Shown here: positions 52,127 to 54,978 of the stretch, piece after piece
Layout of the letters: every line of letters starts with the position of its first letter
How positions within the stretch are numbered: the stretch's first letter is position 1
Assembly (NCBI GenBank): GCA_015709675.1
Contig: CP054182.1
Span: 558,001-622,000, forward strand
Reading direction: 5' to 3'
Origin: Ignavibacteriales bacterium
GTDB taxonomy: Bacteria > Bacteroidota > Ignavibacteria > Ignavibacteriales > Ignavibacteriaceae
DNA length: 64,000 nucleotides
Made by a program: the position numbers and the translations under genes
The notes under the pieces: generated by a model
Database searches by the model: none
What the model was told of the DNA's origin: nothing
The model's input: the letters and a program-made list of their open reading frames with translations, nothing else

Positions 52127-53251
52127 ATGCTTGAAATAGAACGCCAGCTTCATACTATTGCCAGCAGGTATCTTGGTTCCCGGCGGGTTCTGGTACTTCT
52201 CGGTCCGCGGGGAGCGGGGAAGTCTCACCTTCTCCGGCTTTGGGCAGATGAACGGGAGTATGAGGCGCTATTCCTTAACGGTGAAGACCTTCGTGTGCAG
52301 GAACTGCTTGACCCGGCAAACTCCGGCCGGTTCATGACCATGCTTGGCAGCAGCCGTTTCTTTATCCTTGATGAAGCCCGCAAGATTCCCGATATAACCG
52401 AAACGGTGCTGCGCCTGCTGGATGATGCCGAGGCAGTTAAGATTATCCTTGCCGCTTCCTCTTCCGATGCGTTTGGTGATGACCCCGATGATCCGCTCCG
52501 CGGACAAAAATATACCTTCCACCTTTTTCCCCTGGCTGAAAAAGAACTTCCTCCCGGTGATCAGAGCGCTCCTCTTATGGAACGGCTTATCTACGGCTGT
52601 TACCCCGCGCTCTTTTCCCTGACAGGCCCAAAAGAGAAAGAGGACTATCTCCGCTCCGTGGTGAATGACTGCATATATAAAGATATTCCCGCTGCCGAAG
52701 GGATACGCGTATCAGAAAAAATCGGGCGGCTGATGCTGCTTCTGGCTGAACGTGCCGGAAATGAACTGAGTATGAATGAACTGGGGAAGGAGCTTTCCAT
52801 CAGCAAAAACACCGCTGAAAAGTATCTTGAGGTGCTCAGCCGTCTCTTTATTATCCATCCGGTTGCGCCTTATGCCGAAGCGGGGAAACGGCACCTTGCC
52901 GGGCAGCGGCGCTGGTACTTTCTTGATAACGGGCTCCGCAATTCCCTGCTGAATAATTTTTCTGCTGCCGATAAACGGGATGATATATATATCCTCTGGG
53001 AAAACTACCTTATTTCTCAGCGTCTCAAGCAGCAGAGAAATCAGCGCCGTGCAGTTACAAATTATTTCCTGCGCACTTATGACGGACTAAGCATTCCCTG
53101 GCTGGAAGACTCCGGCGGAAAGCTGACCGGATATAAATTCACTCTTCGCTCCGCAAAAAAGAAATCTCCCGCGGCATGGCACAAAGCCCTGCCTCAGGCA
53201 TCGTTCCGTGTGATTACGCCGTCAAACTACAAAGAGTGGCTCGTGGAATAA
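52127..53251 (+). CDS. AAA_14/DUF4143 ATPase (short form)
   Basis: 374 residues. P-loop LLGPRGAGKSHLL (about 25-37), Walker B FFILDEARKI, then the DUF4143-type C-terminal half with a winged-helix segment (NELSMNELGKELSISKNTAEKYL) and a closing domain that is usually nuclease-like but here lacks an obvious ExK site. These ATPases are widespread, are suspected of DNA-linked or toxin-like roles, and have no settled function. It points toward a second member of the family, end to end. The ATG has a weak ribosome-binding site. Confidence 0.85.
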   Translation: MLEIERQLHTIASRYLGSRRVLVLLGPRGAGKSHLLRLWADEREYEALFLNGEDLRVQELLDPANSGRFMTMLGSSRFFILDEARKIPDITETVLRLLDDAEAVKIILAASSSDAFGDDPDDPLRGQKYTFHLFPLAEKELPPGDQSAPLMERLIYGCYPALFSLTGPKEKEDYLRSVVNDCIYKDIPAAEGIRVSEKIGRLMLLLAERAGNELSMNELGKELSISKNTAEKYLEVLSRLFIIHPVAPYAEAGKRHLAGQRRWYFLDNGLRNSLLNNFSAADKRDDIYILWENYLISQRLKQQRNQRRAVTNYFLRTYDGLSIPWLEDSGGKLTGYKFTLRSAKKKSPAAWHKALPQASFRVITPSNYKEWLVE

Positions 53252-53441: not shown

Positions 53442-54788
53442 CTATCGGGAGTCTGCCCATCGTAAATAATTGCGCAACTCTCCGGCAAGAAACAGAGGAA
53501 GATTCAGCAGCCGGAAACTTTTACCTGCCGGCGTGGTTACTTTTGTATCTGAAAATTCTCCTGAATAAAATCTGACCGCCAGATCATGCGGAGCCTCCTC
53601 CATAAACTGATGCAGCGAACGCAGCTTGCCGGACGGACCGGATTTCACTTCAACCGGAATTAGTCTGCCTTCATCAGGAAATATATAATCTACCTCAGCC
53701 TGCGATGATTTTTTCTCCCTGGTCCAGAATCCCAGTGTGCTTAATGCGCTTCTTTCGGGAGCAATCATTTCCTGGCCTGTCATGTGTTCAACCGCTTTTC
53801 CTCCATATATATGATGTAAATCCGGTGAAAAGAGTATATCCTTCTGTATTCCCAGAAAATAATTCATAAGCCCGGTATCCAAAAGCTGCAGTTTAGGTTT
53901 TTTTCTGAGATTTGGCATCAGCGGAAGTGAGGCAGCCGGGTTCGGATATATCAATGAAATAAAAAATGCCTTCTCCAGAGTTCTAAGTGCCTCGCCAATC
54001 TCCCGTGAATTGTATGATGAATTGCCAAATCCTTCAAACGTGATTCTGCTTCCTGCCACAGCAAAAGATGATCGTATAACATGACGCAAAATCTCCGTTT
54101 TTGAAGGCGAGTGTGCATATTTTTCAACATCATCAATGTAGGAAATAATCAGACTGTCATAAACCGGTTTAAGCTTTACCAAATCTCTTTCTGCTGCGTA
54201 AGAGGCAACTATTTCGGGCATTCCACCTATCAGCAGATAAATGGTATATAAATTATTCAATTTTGGGATTACATAATCACGGATAGGAATCTCTTTAAGC
54301 TCCTCAAGAGCTGATGTTTCCCCAAGCGCTCCCAGAAATTCCGCAAATGAAACAGGACGAAGCACCATATACTCAACTCTTCCGACCGGAAAGCTTACAT
54401 TCTTAGTAAAGAGACTTTCCAGCATTGAGCCTGCTGCAATGATGTGAATATCAGGAGCATTCTCATAGAAATACCGGAGCATTCTAAGCGCTTCGGGTAC
54501 CTGCTGAATTTCGTCAATAAAGATGAGAGTTCGCCTGGTTCTGTCATATTGCTGATTTTTAACAAAGAACATTCCTTTTATCAAATCCTCAATGGTCTTG
54601 AAGGTTGAAAACAGTTCTTTGTCCCGTACTGACTCCAGATTAAAGTAGAGGTACGTTTCATAATTACGGGAGAATTGTTTGACAACCGTTGTTTTGCCAA
54701 CCTGCCGGGCTCCGCGAATTACAAGTGGCTTTCTATCCGGTTTTTTAGACCATGCCTTAAGGTCAGACAGAATAGCTCTTTCAAACAT
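53442..54788 (-). CDS. AAA_14/DUF4143 ATPase (long form) with upstream direct repeats
   Basis: 448 residues, full architecture. AAA_14: RGARQVGKTTVVKQFSR (P-loop, about 22-38), Walker B TLIFIDEIQQVPEALRMLRY, sensor IIAAGSMLES. DUF4143 half: winged helix region (SKTEILRHVIRSSFAVAG), LQLLDTGLMNYFLG, and a nuclease-like end SSQAEVDYIFPDEGRLIPVE followed by VKSGPSGK (E-x-K core of PD-(D/E)xK type). Not the same subtype as the 52127 gene, which lacks that core. Upstream are a promoter box and five 32-bp repeats, indicating dedicated control. Confidence 0.9.
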   Translation of the reverse strand: MFERAILSDLKAWSKKPDRKPLVIRGARQVGKTTVVKQFSRNYETYLYFNLESVRDKELFSTFKTIEDLIKGMFFVKNQQYDRTRRTLIFIDEIQQVPEALRMLRYFYENAPDIHIIAAGSMLESLFTKNVSFPVGRVEYMVLRPVSFAEFLGALGETSALEELKEIPIRDYVIPKLNNLYTIYLLIGGMPEIVASYAAERDLVKLKPVYDSLIISYIDDVEKYAHSPSKTEILRHVIRSSFAVAGSRITFEGFGNSSYNSREIGEALRTLEKAFFISLIYPNPAASLPLMPNLRKKPKLQLLDTGLMNYFLGIQKDILFSPDLHHIYGGKAVEHMTGQEMIAPERSALSTLGFWTREKKSSQAEVDYIFPDEGRLIPVEVKSGPSGKLRSLHQFMEEAPHDLAVRFYSGEFSDTKVTTPAGKSFRLLNLPLFLAGELRNYLRWADSR

Positions 54789-54810: not shown

Positions 54811-54818
54811 CAAAGTTA
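54811..54818 (-). promoter_or_regulatory. Promoter box (TAACTTTG) of the long DUF4143 ATPase
   Basis: On the minus strand TAACTTTG matches TAnnTTTG and lies 22 bases from the ATG at 54788. Nineteen bases upstream is CTG, which belongs to the first direct repeat, so the repeat array overlaps the -33 position of this promoter. Confidence 0.55.
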
Positions 54819-54827
54819 CAAATAATC

Positions 54828-54978
54828 TGCACAAAGTCAGGGCATTTTTGCCTCAAGCTTGCACAAAGTCAGGGCATTTTTGGTAAAAATTTGCACAAAG
54901 GAAGGGCAATTTTGGTTTTAACCTGCACAAAGGAAGGGCAATTTGGGGTAAGTTCTGCACAAAGTAAGGGCATTTGCC
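54828..54978. repeat. Five direct repeats, exact 32-bp period (iteron-like operator array)
   Basis: TGCACAAAG starts at 54828, 54860, 54892, 54924 and 54956, each 32 bases apart. The conserved part is TGCACAAAGTCAGGGCATTT (variants GA for TC and AATT for ATTT), about 20-23 bases, followed by about ten variable bases. A 32-bp step is close to three helical turns, so all copies face the same side of the DNA. Confidence 0.92.

Follow-up and report, generated by a model that had tools for sequence, protein, structure and literature searches.

Private repeat arrays at the starts of AAA_14/DUF4143 ATPase genes as candidate operators read by their own products

A five-copy array upstream of a DUF4143 ATPase gene

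The window analysed here is a 64,000-nucleotide stretch from an Ignavibacteriales bacterium (assembly GCA_015709675.1, contig CP054182.1, positions 558,001 to 622,000), to whose own numbering all coordinates refer. On its minus strand lies a DUF4143 ATPase gene (53442–54788), preceded by an array of five direct repeats that start at 54828, 54860, 54892, 54924, and 54956 and together span 54828–54978; the step is exactly 32 bp throughout, in agreement with the initial annotation, which had recorded five copies without drift in spacing. The conserved block of each copy is TGCACAAAG-NN-AGGGCA (17 bp) together with a T/A run, and the remainder of the 32-bp unit is variable. A promoter-like element is found 22 nt before the ATG at 54788, at the distance at which a promoter had been proposed, with the nearest copy just upstream of it. 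Its form, TAnnTTTG, is presumably that of the Bacteroidota −7 element. The features of the array region are as follows.

54811..54818, minus strand: TAACTTTG, promoter-like element of TAnnTTTG (−7) type, 22 nt before the ATG at 54788
54828..54844, minus strand: conserved block of iteron 1, nearest the gene; minus-strand reading fits the family motif
54860..54876, minus strand: conserved block of iteron 2; minus-strand reading fits the family motif
54892..54908, minus strand: conserved block of iteron 3; minus-strand reading fits the family motif
54924..54940, minus strand: conserved block of iteron 4; minus-strand reading fits the family motif
54956..54972, minus strand: conserved block of iteron 5; minus-strand reading fits the family motif

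The whole genome (4,212,902 bp, one contig) was searched for the repeat, with the reversed pattern as control. The single repeat, TGCACAAAGNNAGGGCAWTTT, gave five matches at up to one mismatch, every one in the window array; none was found outside the array at up to two mismatches, and a third mismatch added two elsewhere, compared with four for the control pattern. The spaced pair TGCACAAAG-N23-TGCACAAAG matched exactly four times, always in the array, and inexactly six times elsewhere (one match with two mismatches, five with three, versus one match for the control), the AGGGCA block being present in none of these six. With the repeat confined to the window array at up to two mismatches, a dispersed repeat or regulon is ruled out, and the occurrence of the repeat across the genome without a DUF4143 gene, which the initial annotation had named as the outcome that would speak against it, was not seen. 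Other familiar repeat classes fit poorly. CRISPR arrays consist of repeats of ∼23–50 bp with unique spacers of similar length; here ∼17–20 bp are conserved in a 32-bp unit, leaving 12–15 bp. An iteron-controlled replicon does not match a window that lies inside a 4.2-Mb single contig and that has no Rep domain in the six open reading frames (ORFs) scanned around the array, among which there is likewise no methyltransferase gene or separate C protein gene, as would be expected of a restriction-modification system with a C protein.

The gene downstream (P0001) encodes a 448-residue protein with these features.

53442..54788, minus strand: DUF4143 ATPase gene, combining an AAA+/STAND-like ATPase, a winged helix, and a PD-(D/E)XK nuclease-like domain
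54690..54713, minus strand: Walker A codons, GARQVGKT, residues 26–33; G26, R28, Q29, G31, K32, and T33 are invariant in the A2 set
53643..53690, minus strand: nuclease motif D367...E380-x-K382; D367 and K382 are invariant and E380 is at least 90% conserved among 76 aligned proteins

The protein matches Pfam AAA_14 (4.1e-30) and DUF4143 (4.2e-18), and PF13173 and PF13635 occur together in it at 104.9 and 66 bits, against curated cut-offs of 27 and 28.1. In the AlphaFold2 model (mean predicted local distance difference test score 92.5), helix 261–273 sits in a winged-helix layout and residues 358–363 join two strands just before Asp367; residues 261–273 are predicted to be the recognition helix of the winged helix, from a reading of the secondary structure and the STAND-fold matches. 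A sequence search among solved structures returned none at E ≤ 0.01 for the window protein. By fold, over about residues 1–313, the closest matches come from archaeal ATPases, 2qen (Z 16.0) and 2fna (Z 14.8), followed by the NLR RPP1 and CED-4 (VIA-align Z 14.5 over residues 1–331, a similarity of fold alone); Orc/Cdc6 chains rank lower, and TnsC is among the Foldseek matches. As the fold searches mostly used residues 1–331, they carry little information on the DUF4143 domain.

The hidden Markov model PDLC04788 of the PADLOC candidate system PDC-S01 matches residues 1–445 of the window protein at 4e-174, which makes the protein a member by sequence model. We take COG1373 to be the same family as PDC-S01 and AAA_14-DUF4143. 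In the accessible text of PMC12988326, PDC-S01 is described, like the window protein, as a fusion of an ATPase with a PD-(D/E)XK domain, and as the fourth most common defence across prokaryotes, validation being pending for most such candidates; it is also among the commonest in rumen genomes (PMC13356809, accessible text). The statement of the initial annotation that these ATPases have no agreed role can thus be updated: the family is a widespread bacterial ATPase-nuclease listed as an as yet unvalidated defence candidate. Elsewhere, a Thermus AAA_14/DUF4143 gene appears with a value of 6.6 in a table of expression changes with plasmid DNA present (PMC4406477, in part), and COG1373 is listed among genes common to several genera (PMC10782964, in part). 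Promoter repeats are not mentioned in the accessible text on the family in these four open-licence sources (PMC4406477, PMC10782964, PMC12988326, and PMC13356809), in which respect PDC-S01 as described in the two papers that treat it differs from the window system, and searches of the open-licence literature found no earlier description of the array.

Arrays in homologues and in the wider family

In named genomes, 553 relatives were confirmed, of which the best 80 were used. By the labels given in the records, mostly those of metagenome-assembled genomes (MAGs), these 80 are mostly Bacteroidota, with Desulfobacula, Spirochaetales, Treponema, Acidobacteriota, Actinomycetota, Planctomycetota, Aminicenantes, Armatimonadota, Gammaproteobacteria, Clostridium, and more among the remainder. 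In a test on the 79 homologues with at least 80 bp upstream, favouring no step between 15 and 80, the best direct repeat scored at least 11 in 72, at steps of 33 (62 homologues), 66 (5), 65 (3), 32 (1), and 64 (1); seven (L098, L108, L117, L119, L132, L136, and L151) scored below 11. The 32-bp step of the window is hence a minority variant within its own subfamily, 33 bp being the commoner. Rotational alignment of 75 arrays yields a consensus close to AAAWTTACCCTnACTTTGTTACAAA, and a motif chain, which favours steps of 31–34 bp and their doubles, finds at least two sites in 87 of 89 genes and three in 52. The initial annotation had foreseen that TGCACAAAG arrays would recur upstream of AAA_14/DUF4143 genes in other genomes. 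Arrays do recur there, in several phyla, with step and layout kept; the TGCACAAAG word does not, its letters changing from gene to gene.

Three side observations concern individual loci. In L016, a private repeat of 33-bp step continues into the first codons of the predicted ORF, which implies that the true start is probably further downstream. L018, a locus of the window genome, has a separate tandem repeat of 9-bp units (AAGGACAGC-like) ∼200–310 nt upstream of the gene, unlike the 32-bp arrays. L173–L190 (mostly one genus, g98) share ∼37% identity with the window protein and make up a subfamily in which a weak 33-bp pair with AAATTGCCTTGTA is present in several members.

The words are private to their genes. 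Fifty DUF4143 genes of eight genomes have a repeated 16-mer (one of them an artefact of an unread-base run), and in none of 548 ordered pairs was it found, at up to two mismatches, upstream of another DUF4143 gene of the same genome, which rules out a word common to paralogues. We estimate the chance expectation for shared 16-mers to be about zero as well, so the words of paralogues are simply unrelated. The words are also local: of the sites in 87 loci that match the gene's own 19-mer at up to two mismatches, 195 lie in the upstream 300 bp and two in the remainder. Both outlying sites belong to L097, where a second array of three repeats with a nearly identical word lies 3′ of the ATPase gene (L097:3511–3600). 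Own-motif sites outside the upstream region are thus a feature of 1 of 87 loci and are absent at the window gene, and neither a transposon end nor a DNA transposon with terminal sites describes the array.

The position relative to promoters is similar in part of the subfamily. Of 87 homologues, 40 have a TAnnTTTG no more than 75 bp from the ATG, versus 5.0 expected from mononucleotide shuffles; in the other 47 it was not found within that distance. The element begins 19–22 bp beyond motif position 10 of the final repeat in 17 of the 40 and coincides with the repeat in 8. In genes with an aligned TAnnTTTG the arrays would then cover or abut the promoter, as a repressor site would.

The window genome has 12 DUF4143 matches; in most of these genes, as judged by eye, short repeats or palindromes adjoin the start codon, with letters differing from gene to gene. 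We assembled a mixed set from the window genome and its relatives: 80 DUF4143 matches in 19 of 26 genomes, of which 73 were taken (L009–L081) and 7, partial or at contig ends, left out; filters for Walker A, an acidic motif, and a length of at least 330 gave 64 distinct genes, 10 of them from the window genome, scored from −150 to +50 of the first ATG. A direct repeat scored at least 12 in 34 of the 64, with a best step of 32 or 33 bp in 29 of these. Repeats of 31–33 bp scoring at least 11 were present in 32/64 genes, versus 0/69 neighbouring ORFs and 0.2% of 640 dinucleotide shuffles, values that rule out a chance origin; palindromes scoring at least 9 were present in 44/64 genes, versus 3/69 neighbouring ORFs and 9% of shuffles. 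Proteins of ∼450 residues tend towards direct repeats, and a palindrome near the start codon is more frequent among those of ∼380–430 residues. Half-sites of the palindrome class were gathered from 85 genes and then from 49 (30 as one group), with centre types and register mixed. An array or palindrome was seen in 124 of 163 genes with the nuclease pattern and 5 of 12 without it, a weak difference that is not used as evidence.

Further observations on the wider family stand apart from the argument. In the related DUF4143 genes L278, L284, L303, L306, and L308, a palindromic word of GGTTGATNATCAACC type lies near the start codon, and in six genes of a class-wide set the best direct step is 22 bp, not 32–33. 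The number of DUF4143 matches reaches 25 in the genome of L142 (a Legionellales MAG, 1.9 Mb) and 22 in that of L104 (a Spirochaetales MAG, 3.8 Mb), which is high for one family. Within the window, there is one other such gene.

52127..53251, plus strand: second, convergent DUF4143 ATPase gene (domain scan)

No 31–34-bp repeat is present at its start (score 6), where there is a weak palindrome only (10.5). Its product does not match the nuclease-motif pattern; the motif looks degenerate, with YKF replacing ExK.

Covariation of protein and repeat word

For 87 protein/array pairs, every protein column was compared with every motif position by mutual information with average-product correction and sequence weighting, in the residue numbering of the window protein. 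Two nulls were used, permutation and swapping among near neighbours (60 draws each); the statistics are not tree-aware. The top pair, residue 360 with motif position 13, reached z 10.6, against a maximum of 7.74 under permutation and 9.0 under neighbour swapping. Two segments of the protein recur among the high pairs.

53997..54011, minus strand: codons 260–264, start of the predicted recognition helix (261–273); residues 260, 261, 262, and 264 covary with motif positions 18–21
53694..53720, minus strand: codons 357–365, hairpin before the nuclease Asp; residues 359, 360, 361, and 363 covary with motif positions 10–13

Besides 360-13, the hairpin pairs are 361-11 (z 7.65), 359-12 (5.1), 363-11 (4.8), and 361-10 (4.7), and those of the recognition helix are 264-21 (6.3), 260-20 (6.2), 261-18 (5.1), 261-19 (4.6), and 262-21 (4.4). 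Eight of the top 20 pairs fall within 355–364 or 245–268, versus 1.1 on average and at most 4 under the neighbour-swap null.

The link between residue 360 and motif position 13 can be written as a rule: Lys goes with C in 33/42, Arg with C in 5/6, and His with C in 4/4, and Asn goes with T in 10/10, Thr with T in 6/8, and Ser with T in 5/6. Lys and Arg would contact the G of a C:G pair and Asn the A of a T:A pair, and by this general contact chemistry the rule is a sensible one. When only pairs of 55% identity or more are compared, residue 360 comes out as the best of 359 columns for motif position 13; as the pairs are not independent, Fisher values are descriptive. The sister proteins L083 and L085 (88% identical) differ, within both segments, only at 360 (T/K) and 361 (S/T), and their arrays have T in 3/3 versus C in 3/3 copies at motif position 13, consensus positions 3–12 and 14–18 being identical. 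Three further pairs agree at the consensus level, namely L098/L099 (80% identical; N/K with T/C), L086/L087 (92%; N/T, both with T), and L118/L122 (89%; R/K, both with C). Contrary pairs occur, such as L082, which has Lys with T. Eight genes were kept out of the training set; the seven of them that have arrays all follow the rule, at 55–75% identity to the closest training sequences. Split-half tests gave the selected columns, among which 361 and 360 were the most frequent, a modest advantage over entropy-matched random columns in predicting the motif (0.566 versus 0.507, in 39 of 40 splits). Motif identity as a whole rises with protein identity, from 0.58–0.60 below 55% to 0.80 above 70%.

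Interpretation and relation to known systems

The arrays are present, keep their step, have private words, are nearly confined to the upstream region of their own gene, and covary with the adjoining protein. Their recurrence in homologues of several phyla, their absence from all 69 neighbouring ORFs, and the covariation of repeat bases strongly support the proposal of the initial annotation that the array is dedicated to the ATPase; the autoregulation that it also suggested would fit, as an interpretation of sequence data. The ATPase very likely binds its own array. In our view the array is probably a private operator that serves cis-autoregulation, with the ATPase as its reader; the covariation supports this.

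One protomer would probably recognise one ∼20-bp bipartite word, the winged-helix recognition helix reading the right part (motif positions 18–21) and the hairpin beside the nuclease active site the left part (positions 10–13). The head-to-tail copies, three helical turns apart (32–33 bp), would place two to six protomers on one face of the DNA, perhaps cooperatively, and protomers so aligned over the promoter and start region would hold down transcription of their own gene until a trigger, possibly infection, released them. If word and protein diverged together, paralogues within a genome would avoid cross-regulation.

Several observations weigh against the idea of an operator read in this way. 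With null maxima of 7.74 and 9.0, only 360-13 stands above both individually, 361-11 falling just below the permutation maximum; pairs outside both segments are also high, i.e. 99-15 (7.3), 77-19 (6.6), and 434-3 (5.3), and the two segments were chosen once the ranking was known. The 361-11 link lacks significance in pairs of 60% identity or more, and in close pairs residue 361 is absent from the eight best columns for motif position 11. The selected columns only equal whole-protein nearest neighbours in split halves (0.566 versus 0.567). The held-out L346, a related gene on a Segatella copri plasmid, has no array. The residue-360 rule was also tried on 46 further genes, none of them in the training set. 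In 26 of these the window-subfamily motif identified at most one site, and the remaining 20 were mostly contrary to the rule, 18 of them being just 36–47% identical to the training set; the rule fails in distant subfamilies, where 16 genes with Lys, Arg, or His have C in 2, T in 8, and A in 6, in a register that is itself doubtful. Direct repeats are also sparser further afield. In a ten-genome set reached via the subfamily loci, 31–34-bp repeats scoring at least 11 were found in 20/61 genes versus 2/91 controls, and in 13/53 after removal of the eight genes common to the subfamily set; in the class-wide sample they were found in 5/50 versus 2/149. Palindromes were found in 29/62 versus 12/91 in the former (score at least 9) and in 25/50 versus 9/149 in the latter (score at least 10.5), where 26/50 genes versus 10/149 controls have a repeat or a palindrome. 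These counts indicate that a large part of the wider family carries such sites, not all of it.

The alternative that survives best has the ATPase reading the array as a DNA-locus function, i.e. an origin- or centromere-like site of parking or assembly for storage or oligomerisation, with regulation as a side effect. The iteron-like direct repeats, the conserved nuclease triad, and the fold of residues 1–313, which resembles 2qen, 2fna, and STAND NTPases and, at lower rank, Cdc6/Orc1, are all compatible with it. The concentration of own-motif sites at gene starts and their rarity elsewhere in the loci (195 versus 2) are not what it would lead one to expect, and the above-chance occurrence of TAnnTTTG after the array favours a promoter role; we regard this alternative as rather unlikely.

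Two further explanations appear to us very improbable. The array might be one end of a small mobile element, with the ATPase-nuclease as recombinase and the repeats as transposase-type sites: AAA+ and PD-(D/E)XK also occur together in TnsC/TnsA pairs, TnsC is among the Foldseek matches, L097 has its second three-copy array 3′ of the gene, and COG1373 is among the genes common to several genera (PMC10782964, in part), whereas own-motif sites lie outside the upstream region at that single locus of 87. Equally, an unlinked host regulator might bind the arrays, with covariation reflecting shared ancestry alone. Arrays and proteins are indeed inherited together, as the parallel rise of motif and protein identity shows, and the statistics take no account of the tree; however, a host regulator would not be expected to have a private word for each gene (0/548 shared), and 360-13 exceeds the neighbour-swap null, with top pairs enriched in two structurally sensible segments. 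A tandem repeat arisen by chance or slippage and lacking function, although the window genome does contain simple tandem repeats close to other genes (L018), is contradicted by the retention of a 32–33-bp step with unrelated letters across homologues and by 0/69 control ORFs, and can practically be dismissed.

A private operator read by the ATPase may work like autoregulated defence genes and repressor/operator pairs. C-box operators (e.g. of Kpn2I) are read at the start of restriction-modification genes by a separate small helix-turn-helix controller protein; they resemble the proposed window system in the control of a defence gene by sites at its own start, whereas here the effector ATPase-nuclease is itself the apparent reader, and each paralogue has a private word. 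In phage immunity regions, repressor and operators diverge together into non-cross-reacting specificities, a co-divergence like that proposed here, but the window protein has a different fold and is an enzyme, and no phage context is seen. Iteron/initiator systems, such as plasmid Rep and archaeal Cdc6/Orc1-ORB, have an AAA+ or winged-helix protein and direct repeats near its own gene. They too have a repeat step of a whole number of helical turns; in contrast, there is no Rep gene in the six ORFs scanned at the window locus, the protein has a nuclease domain, and each of several chromosomal paralogues has its own sites. The archaeal ATPases PABY2304 (2qen) and SSO1545 (2fna) and STAND NTPases (NLRs, CED-4) share the fold of residues ∼1–313, the aligned part excluding the DUF4143 domain, and we know of no DNA-operator role for any of them. 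RptR, the repressor of a phage-defence island, is similarly a regulator tied to defence genes but is a dedicated one according to the accessible text of PMC12255303, whereas the window system would need no separate regulator.

A more speculative extension, which we put forward tentatively as possible rather than likely, is that the nuclease domain reads its own array through the active-site hairpin. In this single-gene defence ATPase one DNA-recognition module would then be both operator-binding repressor and site-directed nuclease, silent and stored in its array-bound form; loss of hold, e.g. when infection disturbs host DNA or transcription, would release an active, oligomerising nuclease, and the word would serve as a self tag that keeps the many paralogues of a genome independent in the manner of immunity groups. 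If true, such reading would show where the nuclease domain sits on DNA. More generally, a private, self-read operator would supply a natural DNA ligand for the array-carrying members of this family, a predicted specificity code (residues 359–361 and 260–264) for the window subfamily, and a route to asking what induces the family.
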